Positions 34 to 9,430 of a DNA stretch of 43,961 bases are shown in pieces. Origin of the DNA: Methanosaeta sp. PtaU1.Bin112 (GTDB lineage Archaea; Halobacteriota; Methanosarcinia; Methanotrichales; Methanotrichaceae); the NCBI GenBank assembly GCA_002067705.1, contig MVRL01000091.1:1-43961 (forward strand), in the 5' to 3' direction. A program made the translations under genes and the position numbers. Positions within the stretch are counted from its first letter, which is position 1, and every line of letters starts with the position of its first letter. The notes below the pieces were generated by a model. That model was not told where the DNA came from, searched no databases, and was given only the letters and a program-made list of their open reading frames with translations.

Positions 34-75
34 ATACAGGGCAAGCACAAATTACAGCAATTTTGGCACGCTACC
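34..75. repeat. short dispersed repeat, copy 1
   Basis: About 42 bases here match 34278-34318 at roughly 34 positions with one single-base gap. Shared blocks are ATACAGGGC, AAATTACAG, GGCAC and CTACC. The copy ends exactly at the stop codon of the truncated small gene at 71-247, so it may mark a junction. The function is unknown and no transposase is nearby. Confidence 0.45.
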
Positions 76-247
76 AATTGTTTTCGAAGGTGATCTTTCC
101 TTCTTTGAATTGGCTCTCCGCATTCGAGAACTCATCCTGAGATACGATCTTATCTCCGTCCAGATCTCCCGGCACGGCCCCATGAACTGAGGCTATTGCT
201 GCCAGGATCATTAGGACGATTAAATTTGCTCTTAAGCTAATACTCAT
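71..247 (-). CDS. 58-residue secreted EF-hand protein, probably a truncated substrate-binding protein
   Basis: The ATG at 245-247 opens a 58-codon frame ending in TAG at 71-73. Residues 1-23 form a signal peptide (MSISLRANLIVLMILAAIAS, then VHGA). The mature part begins VPGDLDGDKIVSQDEF, a canonical calcium-binding loop with Asp at positions 1, 3 and 5 and Glu at 12. The chain then ends after NNW. Signal peptide plus one EF-hand is how some archaeal metal and cobamide substrate-binding proteins begin, and five full-length relatives follow immediately. I infer a gene truncated after its N-terminal segment, although a stand-alone small secreted protein is possible. A weak GTGA ribosome site lies five bases before the start. 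Confidence 0.5.
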   Translation of the reverse strand: MSISLRANLIVLMILAAIASVHGAVPGDLDGDKIVSQDEFSNAESQFKEGKITFENNW

Positions 248-413: not shown

Positions 414-1622
414 CTATACCTTTCCAGGTTTTGGCGAAAGCCGTATTCCGTAGAGCTCCTCGGTGTAGTCCCGGTAAGTCTGATTGAAATTTATATCGGC
501 AAACGATTCGGGATAGGCTTTCATGGCATAATCCAGCACAAGAAGCTCTATCTCTGGGGACCAGGAGGTGATGTAGTAGTCTTTGTAGACCTTCTTCTCA
601 TTAACTGCTCTGAGACCCTGCCACTTGTCGCTTCCGTAGATCTGGTCGGGCGAGCCGCTCCAGTACCAGATATTAATGATATCCGGATCCCAATTGACGA
701 TCGTCTCAATCTCAACTTCCGATCCGGATTTGGCGATCTTTCCTTCGGCGAGATCAACGATCCCTGCGATCTGCCATTTCTCGCCCAGAGTTCTAACCTT
801 TGCTGGCTCGACAGAATTCAGAGATATTCCTTTAACCCTCTTTTCCTCCGGTATGACAGAGACCCTGCTTCTCACCAGATCCTCAATTCTGTTCATGGAT
901 GAGATGATCTCTCGTGCCTTATCCACCTTATTGAATAAATAGCCGAACTGCAATAGCTCCTCCCGGAATGAGTCAATTTTTTTATTGTTTTTGGTAGTAT
1001 TTATTTCGAAGACATTGATTCCCAATTTTTTAATGTCCTCGATCTCAGCCGGATATTGATCCCATACTATCATGACATCCGGTTTGATGGCTGCCAGAGC
1101 CTCCCGGTCGAAGCTTCCCGTCTTGCCGTAATCAGGAAGATTCTTTATGTCCGGGTAAATCTCGGTCAGGACATCATCGGTGAGCATATAGCTTGGCACG
1201 CCGACAACCTTAGAAAACTCACCCAGGGCAATGATGAACTCCGGCATATGAGCTACTGCCAGCTTCTCAATGGGCAGATCAAAGCTGACAACGCCGTCGG
1301 ATCCATCTACCAGCATGAGCTTCTCTTCTGTTCCATTGATAATCTGCCTGATATAGTCGGCATCGCTGGAATCAATTGAGCCATCGTAGTTGGCATCGCA
1401 TAGATCGTTCTTAGAATTCGTTCCATTAATGACCCCTTCTACGTAAGCGATGTCCTTTTCATCTATGATGTCATCCTCATTGGCGTTTCCCAGGATGTGA
1501 AGAGTTAGATTTAAAGAGGGCAAATTATTTGCGCTCTTATCATCCTCTGCTGCACTCCCTGAGAGTGCAGATATCATCAGGAATGCCAGCATAACTCCCG
1601 CAAACTTCCACGAACCATTCAT
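414..1622 (-). CDS. dockerin-containing ABC-type metal/cobamide substrate-binding protein (paralogue 1)
   Basis: The 402-residue protein has a signal peptide (residues 1-25). Two dockerin-like calcium loops follow at about 45-100, beginning NANEDDIIDEKD and DANYDGSIDSSD. A TroA/BtuF-type periplasmic binding domain runs from about residue 118 to the end (IKPDVMIVWDQYP is the typical 'this is where the ligand signal lies' strand). The family binds cobalamin, haem or ferric chelates outside the membrane and passes them to a BtuC/FhuB-type permease. AGAGGTGA lies eight bases before the ATG. This is the most divergent of the five tandem copies: it lacks the FVYPP-like C-terminal ending and has its own 89-base upstream region with two copies of CATTGTGC. 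The ligand cannot be read from sequence. Confidence 0.85.
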   Translation of the reverse strand: MNGSWKFAGVMLAFLMISALSGSAAEDDKSANNLPSLNLTLHILGNANEDDIIDEKDIAYVEGVINGTNSKNDLCDANYDGSIDSSDADYIRQIINGTEEKLMLVDGSDGVVSFDLPIEKLAVAHMPEFIIALGEFSKVVGVPSYMLTDDVLTEIYPDIKNLPDYGKTGSFDREALAAIKPDVMIVWDQYPAEIEDIKKLGINVFEINTTKNNKKIDSFREELLQFGYLFNKVDKAREIISSMNRIEDLVRSRVSVIPEEKRVKGISLNSVEPAKVRTLGEKWQIAGIVDLAEGKIAKSGSEVEIETIVNWDPDIINIWYWSGSPDQIYGSDKWQGLRAVNEKKVYKDYYITSWSPEIELLVLDYAMKAYPESFADINFNQTYRDYTEELYGIRLSPKPGKV

Positions 1623-1656
1623 TCCGATTTCACCTCTCTGTTTCTATGCATGAATT

Positions 1657-1679
1657 CATTGTGCTTTTTCGCATTGTGC
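1657..1679 (-). promoter_or_regulatory. paired CATTGTGC motifs, possible operator
   Basis: CATTGTGC occurs at 1657-1664 and 1672-1679, 15 bases apart, in the short spacer before paralogue 1. A third copy (TCATTGTGCT context) lies at 5572-5579 upstream of paralogue 4. Recurrence in spacers of related genes suggests a shared regulator site. No regulator gene is adjacent. Confidence 0.25.
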
Positions 1680-1711
1680 TCGTTCAGAGAATCACATCCA
1701 ATCAAAATTCA

Positions 1712-2971
1712 TCACTCCAAGGGGGGATAGACATAAGCGCCTCGATAGGAAATTCCCTGCCAGTCTTCGAAGTACTCTTCAAGGATCTTTTGGGGCTTAA
1801 GGTCTTCAAATAGATCCGGGTAGAAGTACTTGGCCAAGTAGGCCATACCTGCCACTTCTATAGGTCCACGATTGAGGTCCGTACAGATAATGAAGACTTT
1901 TCCATCCTTGCCTGCGTTCGTTAATTTGATGGCCGAGTCATTTAGAAGCCTATCTCTCACATTCTTCATATACTCGATTGAAGATTCATTTGCACTGTAC
2001 CCTGCCTTTGCCTCGCCAGCACTCAGGCTTCCGATGATTACATCGGGATTTGCCGCTATCACCCATTCTGGGTCTACATCTGCTGTGCCTGAACTGCTGT
2101 TAAGATCGTAGGCAATATTTATTGCGCCAGCACCATCTAATGTAGCCTGAATTCCGCTCTCACCGGTTCTTGCCTTTAAGATTGGATAGTATGTATCTGG
2201 AAAGCCATAAAACATTACCTTAGGCTTCTTATCTTCAGAAACGCCTGCGGTTCTCTCCTGCACATTGGTCCTGTAATCCTGGCACCAATCAACCAAATCA
2301 TTTGCAGTTTCTTTTCTCTTGAACAGCTCTCCCAGGATCAAGATATCGCTGTATAGGGTCTCGTAATCGTGGCAATTGAGGCTGATTACAGGAACGTTTA
2401 TCGTCTCATACTTTTCAAAGGATTCATCCTTGTGTGGTTTTTTATATAAGATTACCAAGTCCGGCTTGAGTTTAGCAATCTGCTCATAGTCAGGGCTTCC
2501 ATATGTTATGCTGGCTTTGTCTTGAAGCTCCGGCCAGTATAATGGATCTTTGAGGGCATAAGACGTAACCCCTACAAGAACCGTCTTGAGGTCTGCTCCA
2601 ATGGCCCGCATTATCTCCATTGAGCCGCTATTTATGGCGATGGCTCTTTTAATGGGCACATTCAGTGTGACGTTTCTGCCCTGAGCATCGACAATGGTCA
2701 ACTCACTCTCTTCTCCTTTTATGATCTCTCCAATTCGATCCAGGTCGGTTGAATCTATCCTGCCGTCCTGGTTGGCATCAGCCAGCTCCGTAGGTTTGCT
2801 GTTTCCGCTGATTATCTCCTGAACATAGGAGATGTCCGCATCATCGATGTTTTCATCCATGTTGGCGTTGCCGAAGATCTCCAGAACATAATCTGTTGCA
2901 GAAACTCCAGGAACGCCCCCTAGAAATGCAAACGATGCCAGATACAGAAAAATAAGAGATATGGCTCTCAT
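1712..2971 (-). CDS. dockerin-containing ABC-type metal/cobamide substrate-binding protein (paralogue 2)
   Basis: The protein has 419 residues: a signal peptide to about residue 25, then LEIFGNANMDENIDDADI and DANQDGRIDSTD as the paired dockerin-type calcium loops, then the binding-protein domain from about residue 105 (VPIKRAIAIN onward, with IAKLKPDLVILY). It ends with the AYLAKYFYPDLFEDL and YVYPPLE blocks shared by the neighbouring copies. The ATG follows immediately after the TAA of paralogue 3, with GGAGGTGA in the end of that gene as ribosome site, so the two are translationally coupled. Expected location is the outer face of the cytoplasmic membrane. The likely ligand class is an iron chelate or corrinoid, by family only. 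Confidence 0.87.
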   Translation of the reverse strand: MRAISLIFLYLASFAFLGGVPGVSATDYVLEIFGNANMDENIDDADISYVQEIISGNSKPTELADANQDGRIDSTDLDRIGEIIKGEESELTIVDAQGRNVTLNVPIKRAIAINSGSMEIMRAIGADLKTVLVGVTSYALKDPLYWPELQDKASITYGSPDYEQIAKLKPDLVILYKKPHKDESFEKYETINVPVISLNCHDYETLYSDILILGELFKRKETANDLVDWCQDYRTNVQERTAGVSEDKKPKVMFYGFPDTYYPILKARTGESGIQATLDGAGAINIAYDLNSSSGTADVDPEWVIAANPDVIIGSLSAGEAKAGYSANESSIEYMKNVRDRLLNDSAIKLTNAGKDGKVFIICTDLNRGPIEVAGMAYLAKYFYPDLFEDLKPQKILEEYFEDWQGISYRGAYVYPPLE

Positions 2972-4231
2972 TTATTTCACCTCCATCAGCGGATATCCAT
3001 ATACCCCCTTGAAATCCTCTCCAAGGAACTTCTGCAGCCACTCATTATGAATTGCCACAGGGTCCATATCTTCAAAGAGCTCGGGATGCAGCCATTTAGC
3101 GACATATGAATTGAATATGGATGGATGTAATGATGCCGCATCACTGGATAGAATATAAACCCGCGAATTCTTGACGGCGTCCATGTTCTCCCAACCCGTG
3201 CGGTTCATGATATCCTTTGCCTTTTCAGCCATCTGAGAACTATTGGTGGCATCATATCCGCTCTGGGGGATATAGGTAAGAAACGTCATCTTGATAATAA
3301 CCTGCGGATTTTTCTTTAGAACTTCCTCCGGATCTATCTCCTTTGTACCATTTATCTCTTTGAAGATGTTGATGCCGCCGCAAGGCTCGATGGCGCGGCT
3401 GACACTATTGCCTGAGCCCGTTTGCAGATCTTTGTAGCTCTCGCCGAATACGCGCGGCTTCTCTTCGTCCTTCAGATCTTTTACCCTATCTTTTATGAAG
3501 TCCATATGCTCTTGCTCGAAATCGATGAGCTGCTCGACCCGCTCTCTCTTGTTCAGCATCCATCCGAGCTTTCTAGTCTCGTTTTTATAGGTTTCAGGAA
3601 CATGGAAATTCAGTTGGACCAGGGGAATACCTGCTTCCTGCAGAATTTTTCTCTCCTTCGAATAATCGTAAATCGCATAGGCAAGGACGATATCAGGCTT
3701 CAGCGTTAGAATTTTTTCCATATCCCACTCGGTGGTCTTTCCCACTTCCGGAGTGTCGTTGATGAATGCTCTTAACTCCCCCCTCTTCTTTACATCATTT
3801 ACAATAGCAACGATCTTATCTTCCTCTCCGAGGGCGCAGAGCATTTCGGGACCGTAAGTGCCCGTCAATGCGGCTATGCTCTTTATCGGCAAGGGGACTG
3901 TAACAGGCTCCCTTGTGGCAGATGGTGCCGAATGCGGCTGGATGATCTGCATTATCGTGAGGTTCTTTTCCTCCCCAGCAATGATCTGCCTGATCTGCTC
4001 TATGTCTTTTTCATCAACCGTTCCGTCGTAATTGGCATCGGCAAACTCTGTAGGCTTATTTGTGCCGCCAATAATTCCTTGAATGTAAGCTTCGTCGTCG
4101 GCATTTATTGTATCATCCATGTTGGCGTTTCCGAAGATCTCCAATGTGTCTTCCGAGGCCAATCCGGACATAATTGCCAGCGTTGCGAATGCCGCCAGAA
4201 AAAGCGGCAAAAAATATCTCAATTTTTTCAT
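2972..4231 (-). CDS. dockerin-containing ABC-type metal/cobamide substrate-binding protein (paralogue 3)
   Basis: I place the start at the ATG at 4229-4231, six bases after GGAGGAG. A TTG three bases upstream is too close to that site. The product has 419 residues: signal peptide (MKKLRYFLPLFLAAFATLA), dockerin loops NANMDDTINADDEA and DANYDGTVDEKDIE, then a TroA/BtuF-like domain with ILTLKPDIVLAYAIYD. The C-terminus carries VAKWLHPELFEDMDP. A proline/serine insert (HSAPSATREP) between dockerin and binding domain is peculiar to this copy. It is coupled to paralogue 4 upstream, whose TAA sits three bases before the ATG, and abuts paralogue 2 downstream. Confidence 0.87.
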   Translation of the reverse strand: MKKLRYFLPLFLAAFATLAIMSGLASEDTLEIFGNANMDDTINADDEAYIQGIIGGTNKPTEFADANYDGTVDEKDIEQIRQIIAGEEKNLTIMQIIQPHSAPSATREPVTVPLPIKSIAALTGTYGPEMLCALGEEDKIVAIVNDVKKRGELRAFINDTPEVGKTTEWDMEKILTLKPDIVLAYAIYDYSKERKILQEAGIPLVQLNFHVPETYKNETRKLGWMLNKRERVEQLIDFEQEHMDFIKDRVKDLKDEEKPRVFGESYKDLQTGSGNSVSRAIEPCGGINIFKEINGTKEIDPEEVLKKNPQVIIKMTFLTYIPQSGYDATNSSQMAEKAKDIMNRTGWENMDAVKNSRVYILSSDAASLHPSIFNSYVAKWLHPELFEDMDPVAIHNEWLQKFLGEDFKGVYGYPLMEVK

Positions 4232-4234
4232 CAA

Positions 4235-5485
4235 TTACTCCTCCAATGGTGGATAGACGAACACTCCGTGCTTGCTCAGGTCGTAGTCCAGCCTCTGGAA
4301 TTTTGTCAGGTACTCCTGATGGAGGGCCTGCGGATCCAGGTCGGCGAAGAGATCAGGGTAGAAAAACTTAGCAAGATACGCAACTCCGATGAAGAATGTT
4401 GGTTTTGCGGCATTGCTGTCCGAGAGCATGAAAACTCTATCATCCTGAACAGCCTCGATGTTCTGCCATCCAGTGCGATTCAGGATGGTCTCCCTCAGAG
4501 CCCTGGCATCGGTGGAATTTTCCTTCTCGTATCCCATATACTTATTTCCGTGATTTGCGGTCTTTACTATTACCTCTGGATTCTCCTGGATTACCCATTC
4601 CGGATCTACCGTAGGGGATGATCCTGCAAGGCCCAAGGCAATATTGTCCCCGCCTGCCAATCTGCACATATCATTGAGGCCAGATCCATTGCTGGCGGCA
4701 GTGAAATCCTTGTTCTGCTCCAGATAAACCCGAGCACGTTTCTCTTTGGGAATCTGGCTTACTTTCTCATTTATCGTATCCAGGTAAGACTCATAAAAGT
4801 CGATGAACTCATAGGCCCTCTGCGGATTTCCCATGAGGTATCCCAGCTGTGCCATCTCCTGTGAGATGTTGTATGGCTGATATAGGTTGATGCCAATGAC
4901 GGTCACATGAGGCTCAAGGCTCTTGGCGTATTCGAGAGAGCTTGAGATGGCCCCATTCCATCCATAGGCAACGGCTACCTCTGGATGCAGGGAGAGAATC
5001 TTTTCAAAGTCGCAATCCGATCCGGACTTGACCACGGGCAGCTTGGATAAATCAGGAAAAAACTCGGTCTTATCCGCAACATACTGCTCGACTCCGATTA
5101 TTTTTTCTTCCTCTCCCAGGATTTTAATGCATTCGGCTGAGTGCTGATTCAGGGATACCAGAGTGTCTATGGGGTATTTCACTGTTATTGTACTATTGGC
5201 AGAATCGATGATTGTGAGGTTCTCTTCCGTTCCGGTGACGATCTTTTCCGCCAAAACGGCATCATTTTCGTCTATCGTGCCGTCGAGGTTGGTATCTGAA
5301 AACATCGTAGGATGCTGCGCTCCCGAAACGACCCCTCTGATGTACTCGACATCCTTTTCGTCAATAACGCTATCCATATTCGCATTTCCATAAATCTTGA
5401 GCGTGAAGCTCCCGGCAAGTGCTGGTAAAATTAATGCAAAAGCACATAAGATTACAGCAAGCCATACGAAATCTTTCTTGAACAT
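4235..5485 (-). CDS. dockerin-containing ABC-type metal/cobamide substrate-binding protein (paralogue 4)
   Basis: The ATG at 5483-5485 is preferred over the TTG just upstream. AGGGGA lies about seven bases before it. The product of 416 residues has a signal peptide, the loops NANMDSVIDEKD and DTNLDGTIDEND, and a binding domain with ILSLHPEVAVAYGW. It ends VAYLAKFFYPDLFADLDP, then FVYPPLEE. It is the first gene of the tightly packed run 4-3-2. The 160-base spacer upstream contains a T-run terminator for paralogue 5 and one CATTGTGC motif, so this is probably where a second transcript begins. Several N-x-T/S sequons suggest surface glycosylation. Confidence 0.87.
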   Translation of the reverse strand: MFKKDFVWLAVILCAFALILPALAGSFTLKIYGNANMDSVIDEKDVEYIRGVVSGAQHPTMFSDTNLDGTIDENDAVLAEKIVTGTEENLTIIDSANSTITVKYPIDTLVSLNQHSAECIKILGEEEKIIGVEQYVADKTEFFPDLSKLPVVKSGSDCDFEKILSLHPEVAVAYGWNGAISSSLEYAKSLEPHVTVIGINLYQPYNISQEMAQLGYLMGNPQRAYEFIDFYESYLDTINEKVSQIPKEKRARVYLEQNKDFTAASNGSGLNDMCRLAGGDNIALGLAGSSPTVDPEWVIQENPEVIVKTANHGNKYMGYEKENSTDARALRETILNRTGWQNIEAVQDDRVFMLSDSNAAKPTFFIGVAYLAKFFYPDLFADLDPQALHQEYLTKFQRLDYDLSKHGVFVYPPLEE

Positions 5486-5571
5486 CAATTTTCCCCTGAA
5501 GATACAATTTTCATATTACTTATTAATATGATTATCAGATAAATTATGACATAGATAGAATCATTGTGCTA

Positions 5572-5579
5572 TTAATAGA
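5572..5579 (-). promoter_or_regulatory. single CATTGTGC motif upstream of paralogue 4
   Basis: This is the same eight bases found twice before paralogue 1, about 90 bases upstream of this gene's ATG. It is a candidate operator, by recurrence only. Confidence 0.22.
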
Positions 5580-5593
5580 TTGTGACAAGCATG

Positions 5594-5610
5594 CTAAAAA
5601 GAGAAAAAAT
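5594..5610 (-). terminator. T-rich terminator after paralogue 5
   Basis: On the minus strand the sequence reads ATTTTTTCTCTTTTTAG, about 40 bases beyond the stop codon of paralogue 5. Archaeal termination typically occurs at such T-runs. It separates paralogue 5 from the 4-3-2 group. Confidence 0.5.
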
Positions 5611-5647
5611 AGCACCCGACGGATTGTACCGGCGAAAAGGAGAGCGT

Positions 5648-6919
5648 TCAGCTCTCATTTAATGGCGGATAAATAAATGCGCCGTGTTCTGATACACTGA
5701 AATTTATGTATGAGTAGAACTGATCCATGAAGTCTTGATGTATCTTCCCGGGATTGAGGTCCGCGAAGGCTGCCGGGTGCAACATTTTTGCCATGTATGC
5801 CAGAGAGATGAAGTAATCCGGACCAAATGCGATATCGTTGCTGAAAATATGAACGCGATTGTTTTTAACCGCGGAAATTCCTTCTGATCCTGGCATAGAG
5901 ATCATTGCATCATAATGATCTTTTAGCTGCGTTAAATTGTCCGCTCCGTATCCGCCCTCCATCCCAAAGTCGCACCCCAAAATGACATCAGGATTTTGTG
6001 TAAGTACCCATTCTGCACTAACTGTCGGGTTGGATGCAGAAAGGGCAGATGCTACGTTATCTCCACCGGCATTCTCGCAGAGCTGGTGCACGCCATCAGG
6101 AGCATTTCTGGTCCTTCGATCCGATGTTCCCTCTGCCACCCTAGCGTCTAAATAGACTTTGGGGCGCTCATCGCCGGGGATTTCTGCAATCTTTTCTTTT
6201 ATCTGTTCGACTACATCATCGTGAAACTCTAGGTATTTATTTGCATTTTCCTGTTTTCCGAAAATGTATCCCAGCTTTTCGACCTCATCTCTTAACGTTG
6301 CCATCCTCCACAAATCCATTCTAATAACCTTGATGCCTGTACCTTTGAGCTTGTCCTCTAGCAGTTCCGCTTTAGGCGAATTCACGTATACAAATACAAT
6401 CTCTGGATTTAGGTCCAATATCATTTCGATATCAGGAGCTGCTCGAGTCCCCATGCTTTCTTTAGCGCTAAGCTGAGGCAAGAGGACGTTCTTTGTCTTT
6501 GTAGATTCTTCAACTCCGACTATTGTCTTATCATCAACGCCGAGAATGTACAGAAATGCCTCTCCATAATACGAGCTACCAATGACGATTTTTTGCACGG
6601 GCTTATTAACTGTCACAGTCCTATTGGCAGAATCGATAATTGTAAGCTCTTTATCCTCTCCATTGATGATTTGCCTGGTCTGTGCTATGTCATCTTTGTT
6701 CACCATGCCGTCGTAATTGGCATCGCTCAAATTAGTGGGGGGATTTGTTCCATTTATCACTCCTTCGAGATATGTGATGTCATTTTCATCAATTGCTCCA
6801 TCCATGTTGGCGTTTCCAAATATGCTCAGTGTGAATGCCGCCGCAGAAGGCAAAACGCACAATAAAGCATACAATAAAAGCCCGGCCGAGGCATTATGCA
6901 TTATGGCTGATCTCTTCAT
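5648..6919 (-). CDS. dockerin-containing ABC-type metal/cobamide substrate-binding protein (paralogue 5)
   Basis: The protein has 423 residues: signal peptide to about residue 28, loops NANMDGAIDENDI and DANYDGMVNKDDIA, and a binding domain from about residue 108 with ILDLNPEIVFVYVN. It ends LAYMAKMLHPAAFADLNP, then FIYPPLNES. The start at 6919 has GAGG eight bases upstream, while the nearer AGGAG is too close to serve. It is the 5'-most copy and is followed by a T-run terminator, so it is probably a single-gene transcript. A TATA-like element lies at 6974-6985. Ligand unknown. The family role is capture of corrinoid, haem or ferric chelate for an ABC importer encoded elsewhere. Confidence 0.87.
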   Translation of the reverse strand: MKRSAIMHNASAGLLLYALLCVLPSAAAFTLSIFGNANMDGAIDENDITYLEGVINGTNPPTNLSDANYDGMVNKDDIAQTRQIINGEDKELTIIDSANRTVTVNKPVQKIVIGSSYYGEAFLYILGVDDKTIVGVEESTKTKNVLLPQLSAKESMGTRAAPDIEMILDLNPEIVFVYVNSPKAELLEDKLKGTGIKVIRMDLWRMATLRDEVEKLGYIFGKQENANKYLEFHDDVVEQIKEKIAEIPGDERPKVYLDARVAEGTSDRRTRNAPDGVHQLCENAGGDNVASALSASNPTVSAEWVLTQNPDVILGCDFGMEGGYGADNLTQLKDHYDAMISMPGSEGISAVKNNRVHIFSNDIAFGPDYFISLAYMAKMLHPAAFADLNPGKIHQDFMDQFYSYINFSVSEHGAFIYPPLNES

Positions 6920-7076: not shown

Positions 7077-7150
7077 TTTACCATGAAAGCACTCCGATAA
7101 AGGAGGATGTATCGACCTATCCTCCTTTATCGGAGTGCTTTCATGGTAAA
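7077..7150. repeat. perfect 32-bp inverted repeat with 10-base loop
   Basis: Bases 7077-7108 are the exact reverse complement of 7119-7150. The loop is GTATCGACCT. The arm contains AAAGGAGGAT, a sequence resembling a strong ribosome-binding site. The element lies between divergent genes, so it is not an obvious terminator for either. It could be a small inverted-repeat element, a structured RNA or a transposon scar at the edge of the bacterial-like segment that follows. Confidence 0.85.
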
Positions 7151-7612: not shown

Positions 7613-9430
7613 ATGAAAACGAAATTCCAACTTTTGGCCCTCGTGACCATCCTGGCTCTGGCCGGGACAGCTGTTTGCGTAGCGGTACAAGCACCTGAAG
7701 CAGTATCGGCGCCATATGAGCCGGAGACTGTACCGGTCAATCCGACGCTCCTGGCCAAGTATGAGGAGTTCTTTCCACCCGCAGTGTTAAACGTAACAAA
7801 CGATGTCTGGGTTGCCAGAGGGTACAACCGGGACAATCCCTTGCTGATTGAGGGCGTCGACGGTTTGATTGTCGTAGATCCAGGGGAGAGCATCGCCGCG
7901 GCACAGAAGGCCAAGGATGCCTTCAATGCCCACCTGGACAATATCTTCGACAAGAAATCCGTCAAAGCAATCATCTACACCCACCACCACGACTGCCATG
8001 TCAACGGCGCCTCTGTCTTTGCCAACGAGCAAACGGAGATCATCGGTCACGAGAACCTGCTGAGTTCCATGTTCAGCGAGTGGTTTGGCCCGGTCTTTCC
8101 GTCGCGAGCCGAGGGCGGCCTCAAGATGGCAGGAGTGATGTTCCAGGACGCACCCGTCCAGGACGGAGAAGGCTGGTATGCCGGCTACGCGCTTGCTGGG
8201 CCGCAGATTCTCGGGCCATCAGGCTTCCTGGCGCCGACAAAGACCATCAAGGAAGAGACAATGTTGACGATCGCCGGCGTTGATGTAGATCTCATTCCCG
8301 TAGCCGGTGAGACGCAAGATGTCCTCTTTGTGTGGCTGCCGCAAAAAGAAGTCCTGATCCAAATCGCCGTCGTCTACGAGGCATTTCCGGCTATCTCGAC
8401 CATGCGAGGCAGCCGCCTGAGGGATCCACTGGATTACGTCAACAGCCTGAAGATTGCCAGGGGACTTAATCCCGAATACCTGGTGGCGATCCATGGCCCC
8501 AATCCCGTCACCAGCGGAAAAGAAAACGTCAGCCAATACCTCACCAACTTCAGCGATGCAATCCAGTTCGTAAATGACCAAACACTCTACTACATGAACA
8601 GAGGCTATACACCGGGGGAGATGATGGACCTGATCGTGTTGCCGCCCCATCTTGCCTCCAGCCCCTATTTGCAGGAGATTTATGGATCGAAAGAATGGAA
8701 CATCGTCCACATCTTCCGCTATTATCGCGGCTACTACACCGGCGAGGTAAGGGATCTATTTCCACAGACTACCCTGAGTGAGGCAGAGATGTCGGCCTTC
8801 CTCGCTGAAGGCGATGGTGATCTGGCAAGTAAAGCCCAGGCGGCTATGGATATCAACCTGGAATGGGCATTGAGACTCGCCGACGATGCGCTCTTGCTGG
8901 ACCCGGATAACCCTGTGGCGTTCGAGACCAAGAAGGCGGCCATGCTGGCCCTGGCAGAAAACACGATGAATTCGCAGGCGCGCAACATGCTTCTGTCCGA
9001 CTACTTGTTGATGACTGACCAGGCCCATAGGGACTTCGGCTTCGGGGACCCAAAGCTTGCTTTCTCGAGCATCCAAGATAACTTTGTTGAGTTGATGCCC
9101 ATGGCTACCCTGCATCGCATCCTGGCCGTCAGTCTCAATGCATCGAAATCGATGGACAAGGACATCGTCGTTAGCCTTCAGCTGACCGACATCAAGACGA
9201 ATGACCCCAAGGTGCCAGATCACTACACGTTGAACGTTCGTAAGGGCATCCTCGAGGTGGATCCTCCGTCCGCGAGCAAGGGCCAGTTCGAGATCGTGAC
9301 CGACTCGCTGACCTGGAAGCAACTGGTTCTGTCGAAGCTCGATCCTGAAGACGCCGTCGCAAATGGAAAGTTGGTTATTTCCGGAGGAACTCCAGAAAGC
9401 TTCTATTCTTTCATGGAGCTTTTTGAATAA
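7613..9430 (+). CDS. secreted alkyl-sulfatase-like metallo-beta-lactamase-fold protein
   Basis: The 605-residue protein starts with a signal peptide (residues 1-25) and has AAGGAG eight bases before the ATG. It shows the three-part layout of the SdsA1/BDS1 alkyl sulfatases: metallo-hydrolase domain (about 30-280), dimerisation domain (about 290-440, with NDQTLYYMNRGYTPGEMMDL) and a C-terminal SCP2-like domain (about 490-605). The family hydrolyses sulfate esters with two zinc ions. Here the usual HxHxDH motif is HHHDCH, so the aspartate ligand position is cysteine. The segment that normally supplies a second glutamate ligand reads IAVVYEAF. PGET-like AGETQD and a late His (AIHGPNP) remain. 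Activity may therefore differ or be lost. The base composition and relatives suggest transfer from bacteria. Confidence 0.8.
   Translation: MKTKFQLLALVTILALAGTAVCVAVQAPEAVSAPYEPETVPVNPTLLAKYEEFFPPAVLNVTNDVWVARGYNRDNPLLIEGVDGLIVVDPGESIAAAQKAKDAFNAHLDNIFDKKSVKAIIYTHHHDCHVNGASVFANEQTEIIGHENLLSSMFSEWFGPVFPSRAEGGLKMAGVMFQDAPVQDGEGWYAGYALAGPQILGPSGFLAPTKTIKEETMLTIAGVDVDLIPVAGETQDVLFVWLPQKEVLIQIAVVYEAFPAISTMRGSRLRDPLDYVNSLKIARGLNPEYLVAIHGPNPVTSGKENVSQYLTNFSDAIQFVNDQTLYYMNRGYTPGEMMDLIVLPPHLASSPYLQEIYGSKEWNIVHIFRYYRGYYTGEVRDLFPQTTLSEAEMSAFLAEGDGDLASKAQAAMDINLEWALRLADDALLLDPDNPVAFETKKAAMLALAENTMNSQARNMLLSDYLLMTDQAHRDFGFGDPKLAFSSIQDNFVELMPMATLHRILAVSLNASKSMDKDIVVSLQLTDIKTNDPKVPDHYTLNVRKGILEVDPPSASKGQFEIVTDSLTWKQLVLSKLDPEDAVANGKLVISGGTPESFYSFMELFE

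Follow-up and report, generated by a model that had tools for sequence, protein, structure and literature searches.

Tandem class III substrate-binding proteins with dockerin-type modules in a Methanosaeta genome in which no cohesin was detected

The five-gene array

The window analysed here is an entire contig of 43,961 bases (C91), from a 3.44 Mb archaeal genome of 200 contigs (Methanosaeta sp. PtaU1.Bin112), and the relatives recovered by sequence were mostly Methanothrix/Methanosaeta records. The ORF listing of the window places five tandem genes, encoding 402-423 aa each, within positions 414-6919, all on the minus strand. A first-pass annotation had read them as tandem dockerin-bearing substrate-binding proteins, which was borne out, since all five matched both the Pfam family Peripla_BP_2 (E 6e-21 to 9e-28) and a profile of the two-loop module (E 2e-28 to 6e-31), the latter being built from rows that include the window copies themselves. 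The features are as follows.

71-247, minus strand: secreted ORF of 58 aa that contains one EF-hand loop (VPGDLDGDKIVS, VPGDLDGDKIVSQDEF), from frame translation and comparison with the relative locus L096
414-1622, minus strand: binding protein copy 1, the most divergent, 402 aa; EF-hand module 1314-1505; Peripla_BP_2 585-1235; AF2 pLDDT 90.7, pTM 0.85
1712-2971, minus strand: binding protein copy 2, 419 aa; EF-hand module 2696-2890; Peripla_BP_2 1886-2638; AF2 pLDDT 94.4, pTM 0.90
2972-4234, minus strand: binding protein copy 3, 420 aa; EF-hand module 3956-4147; Peripla_BP_2 3140-3850
4235-5488, minus strand: binding protein copy 4, 417 aa; EF-hand module 5213-5407; Peripla_BP_2 4421-5158
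5648-6919, minus strand: binding protein copy 5, 423 aa; EF-hand module 6641-6835; Peripla_BP_2 5849-6544

The module comprises 65 residues after a hydrophobic segment and carries two calcium-type loop-helix repeats (NANxD...ID..D and DANxDG.ID..D), so that both calcium loops noticed earlier were recovered in every copy; the signal peptides also proposed agree with a hydrophobic N-terminus in all five, as judged by hydropathy alone. When the five copies were searched as whole proteins, Pfam Dockerin_1 passed its cut-off in copy 2 only, which marks the module as a divergent dockerin type; genome-wide, this model matched at 15 places. A crude motif scan found no lipobox in the five window copies, and the few lipobox-like matches that the motif gave across 67 frames were mostly in binders lacking the module. 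Likewise, no C-terminal membrane segment or anchor was present in the 67 frames read, window copies included.

The 58-aa ORF at 71-247 is likely a remnant of a 'VPGD'-type binding protein that has lost all but its beginning, as suggested by its translation. The same array in L096 holds full-length binders of this type, which also occur on contigs C2, C81, C88 and C155 of the genome studied. On the other side of the array, an inverted repeat that is nearly perfect, its arms about 28 bases long (CCATGAAAGCACTCCGATAAAGGAGGAT), was recognized by eye at approximately 7081-7147, and may represent a terminator or some small mobile element. It precedes a plus-strand gene (7613-9430) for a 605-aa protein with a signal peptide, which by eye has the look of a metallo-beta-lactamase-fold alkylsulfatase.

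The module of the copy 2 model was predicted with high confidence (pLDDT 94-98). YiuA and FepB were the best structural matches of this model, and those of copy 1 were a Veillonella binder, MolA and the Helicobacter nickel-histidine binder CeuE; bacterial heme-binding proteins were also among the closest folds. Two glutamates, one per lobe, are conserved in the module-bearing copies (E163 in 30/30 and E302 in 29/30). In BtuF such lobe glutamates contact the permease, and we take E163 and E302 to be their putative equivalents. Judging by domain and glutamates, and by modelled fold for copies 1 and 2, the five copies are class III (cluster A) substrate-binding proteins (PF01497). The earlier label of a cobamide/iron-type domain is correct for the family without specifying the ligand; the closest solved folds include binders of siderophores, molybdate, nickel and heme.

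Importers and gene neighbourhood

The array is transcribed toward the first base of the contig and runs off its end, and neither a permease nor CobN lies inside the window. The absence of a transporter, as originally remarked, holds for the window but not for the genome, which contains 17 FecCD matches (12 near full length, one with an internal stop), together with 69 Peripla_BP_2 matches and 32 modules. Thirty-one of these modules lie in frames of binding-protein length, the remaining one belonging to a binding protein cut by a contig end, and a module-profile search found none on other surface proteins of the genome. The array belongs to a family of secreted class III substrate-binding proteins that has expanded in this lineage.

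Permease and ATPase genes are linked to binders on contig C88 of the same genome, where a single FecCD gene and a single ATPase gene precede a tandem run of nine binding domains with the module; nitrogenase-like D, K and H genes come next, along with one more binder of this kind. One further module-bearing binder lies upstream of the permease, for a total of about 11 in the cluster. The proposal that several binders feed one importer finds its gene arrangement here, in which the importer would be shared. The wider region (C88, about 28-90 kb; L065-L068) contains module-bearing binders, FecCD/ATPase pairs, methyltransferases, FmdE-like proteins, the nitrogenase-like genes and a BchH-type chelatase over the NCBIfam cut-off, and looks like a tetrapyrrole uptake and modification locus. 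Within it, a single 834-aa frame (C88 69285-71789; L067 9285-11789) encodes two complete module-bearing binding proteins head to tail, which could be a real fusion or the result of a lost stop.

CobN-family chelatases were found in 18/43 module-bearing contigs vs. 1/39 module-free control windows (Fisher p about 1e-5, a rough value, like any drawn from this comparison, since the evenly spaced controls come from two relatives' genomes only and some contigs share a genome). Against the same controls, FecCD was present in 13 of 43 vs. 2 of 39, and nitrogenase-like proteins in 5 of 43 vs. 0 of 39. Linkage of a CobN-family chelatase to binder and FecCD/ATPase genes is seen at these relatives' loci and in the C88 cluster, the array itself stopping at the contig start. 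The CobN relative HmuS strips heme of its iron; the role of its archaeal homologues has been called unclear (EMBO J 2025; PMC12583661). Consequently, metal-tetrapyrroles are our leading guess for the cargo, with other metal chelates next, as gene association suggests. The arrangement resembles the Hmu heme uptake system, in which genes for a FecCD-type importer and a binder lie near a CobN-family chelatase; it differs in occurring in archaea without the rest of the hmu operon, where heme or another tetrapyrrole is a candidate cargo.

Cohesins and the recognition face of the module

The first-pass annotation had envisaged docking at the cell surface through cohesins, an idea that the genome search does not support. 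No cohesin was found in the genome with Pfam, nor did a profile derived from 29 archaeal cohesins yield one at E<=1, the positive controls being found in both searches. The archaeal profile rules out a cohesin missed by the bacterial Pfam model. In the family, the module occurs in 34/50 genomes (0-43 copies per genome; the order-level set comprises the same 50 genomes) and cohesin in 1/50, this one lacking the module, so that 0/34 module-bearing family genomes have a cohesin by Pfam. In the rest of the class, cohesin is present in 94/150 genomes and in 19/23 of those bearing the module.

Cellulosomal dockerins touch the cohesin through residues 10, 11, 17 and 18 of each repeat. Almost no variation is seen at these sites in ANME-type loci (MQEL/MQEL, MRKL/PLKL and close variants), a grouping made by record title with which the recognition code agrees in 30/32 cases. 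Eight of these loci (L119, L127, L135, L144, L145, L156, L163 and L165) hold cohesin domains together with module-bearing binders of near-constant code. In Methanothrix-group loci no cohesin domain was found, and the genome under study has 27 different codes among 27 copies, on a polar and variable face. Among its own copies, identity is 0.23 at the recognition positions, 0.31 in the binding domain, 0.50 in the rest of the module and 0.92 at the calcium ligands. Both the calcium ligands and the fold appear to be retained, and calcium binding is predicted. As in cellulosomal type I dockerins (PF00404), of which it is a weak to moderate Pfam match, the module has two calcium loop-helix repeats; unlike them, it has neither a cohesin in its genome nor recognition residues shared genome-wide, and is carried by ABC substrate-binding proteins only. 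Lack of a matching cohesin, along with the drifted contact face, indicates that the dockerin has probably outlived its docking job.

In a tree of the binding domain alone, ANME-type and Methanothrix groups are intermixed (25 changes vs. a shuffled mean of 29.5), with 14 mixed, partly nested clades at support of 0.95 or more, and 18/32 ANME-type proteins have their closest binding domain in the Methanothrix group, which never supplies their closest module. In cohesin lineages, the module resembles those of its own paralogues (0.66-0.91) more than that of the binding-domain orthologue (about 0.5). The reverse is true of the genome studied, whose modules are nearer the orthologue's (0.57) than those of their own paralogues (0.45), as also observed in several other Methanothrix-group genomes. 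Hence, the recognition code goes with the host wherever a partner is present and has been released in this genus. In two other Methanotrichaceae genera (G013 and G049), the modules are still nearer their own paralogues despite the absence of cohesin, hinting at residual host matching. The difference in code between groups could reflect either a loss in Methanotrichaceae or a gain elsewhere.

What the module now does can be read in more than one way. An integral structural role is favoured by the confident joint model of module and binding domain and by the drift of the two together. Its main rival is a new partner, namely a sheath or S-layer protein or the permease, bound by the module through a different face, which we regard as a real though minority possibility. 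The module is well conserved beyond the calcium ligands (45% vs. 31%), as an unrecognised partner could explain, and this rival would also account for the residual host matching in G013 and G049 and for the lack of any other anchor in a cell type without an outer membrane. However, a large share of the conserved positions are calcium ligands or hydrophobic, the module tracks its own binding domain and not its own genome, and binders of the same genome that lack the module are equally devoid of C-terminal anchors. Gene conversion as a source of the conservation was rejected, because synonymous codons are mixed at many conserved positions; similarity at four-fold sites of the module is somewhat above the chance level (0.42 vs. 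0.27), and there may be weak homogenisation of modules.

A broader version of this idea, which we consider rather doubtful, is that the docking code belongs to the host and can be swapped: binding domains would be shared or exchanged across archaeal lineages and the dockerin face rewritten in each host, and in Methanothrix this face would have lost its tie to cohesin and come to serve a new partner (sheath, S-layer or permease) by which dozens of metal-chelate binders are arranged about a small number of importers.

Working dockerins, plugged into cohesins of the cell surface or sheath and holding the bank of binders near the importers, are improbable. The two canonical EF-hand loop-helix repeats and the want of a C-terminal anchor on any binder would suit such docking, and in ANME-type genomes proteins of this architecture keep their recognition residues constant and have cohesins encoded in their own loci. 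Moreover, dockerin-bearing ABC substrate-binding proteins of the NikA/OppA and TroA types have been described in ANME genomes with cohesins (Chadwick et al., 2022; PMC9012536). Against this stand the negative cohesin searches, with two profiles in the genome and with Pfam in the module-bearing genomes of its family, and the variable, polar recognition positions.

Pocket divergence and the favoured reading

Copies 1-4 have orthologues in other genomes at approximately 53-75% identity, and copy 5 has none as close. In the cleft-lining segments, which were picked by hand from the secondary structure of the model, members of an orthologue group share 60% of their residues and different copies share 18%, compared with 60% and 29% in the rest of the binding domain, and 64% and 57% in the module. 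Each orthologue line thus preserves its pocket, which differs from those of the other lines, the pattern that different ligands would give. The comparison of pocket residues, as well as the recognisable orthologues of four of the five copies, supports the ligand specialisation suggested at first pass. Plain gene amplification, with one ligand and a benefit of dosage, would fit the tandem arrangement, the common architecture and the single importer of the C88 cluster, but is very improbable given that the copies are just 27-33% identical to copy 2, do not form one clade in the tree, have conserved orthologues with differing pockets and, for copies 1 and 2, differ in their best structural matches.

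We favour, with a probability of about 0.62, a specialised metal-chelate capture family served by few FecCD importers, in which the dockerin-type module has been decommissioned or repurposed and is not a cohesin plug. The secreted class III binders would capture different chelated metals, most likely metal-tetrapyrroles, and deliver them to a small number of probably shared FecCD-type importers, each binder docking on the permease through its two conserved glutamates, by analogy with BtuCD-F. In ANME-type relatives, the same fusion would act as a true dockerin matched to the cohesins of its host. In Methanothrix, where cohesins are absent, the recognition face would be unconstrained while calcium ligands and fold are kept, and the module would survive as an integral element of its binding protein, stabilised by calcium, or else by pairing with a new partner other than cohesin.

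In this context, the proteins look like ordinary binding domains in unusual number, with a module resembling a dockerin freed from its partner. They share binding-domain fold and sequence, and the two glutamates at presumed permease-contact positions, with YiuA, MolA (HI1472), CeuE, ShuT and BtuF, from which they differ in their N-terminal EF-hand module, the lack of a visible lipid anchor and the many paralogues per importer. The ANME proteins already known likewise join a substrate-binding domain to a dockerin-type module in Halobacterota, and related binding domains occur in ANME-type loci, making the present family a variant of a known architecture; unlike those proteins, it is of class III (PF01497), expanded, without cohesins and variable in its recognition face (PMC9012536). 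No published description of these proteins in Methanothrix was found in the literature searched, of which journal coverage was partial.

The two groups offer a natural experiment on the keeping or losing of a docking code, strict with cohesins and variable without them, on related binding domains, and the ANME-type loci that combine binder modules with cohesins are good material for dockerin-cohesin pairs. Furthermore, the gene neighbourhoods give a concrete context to archaeal CobN-like chelatases (PMC12583661), and the family is a candidate metal-uptake route in acetate-using methanogens, at least one of which has been reported to lack FeoB (PMC8351635). Binding proteins of Methanothrix type were also encountered on two contigs filed under a Bacteroidales MAG (L094 and L116), which are probably mis-binned archaeal sequences.
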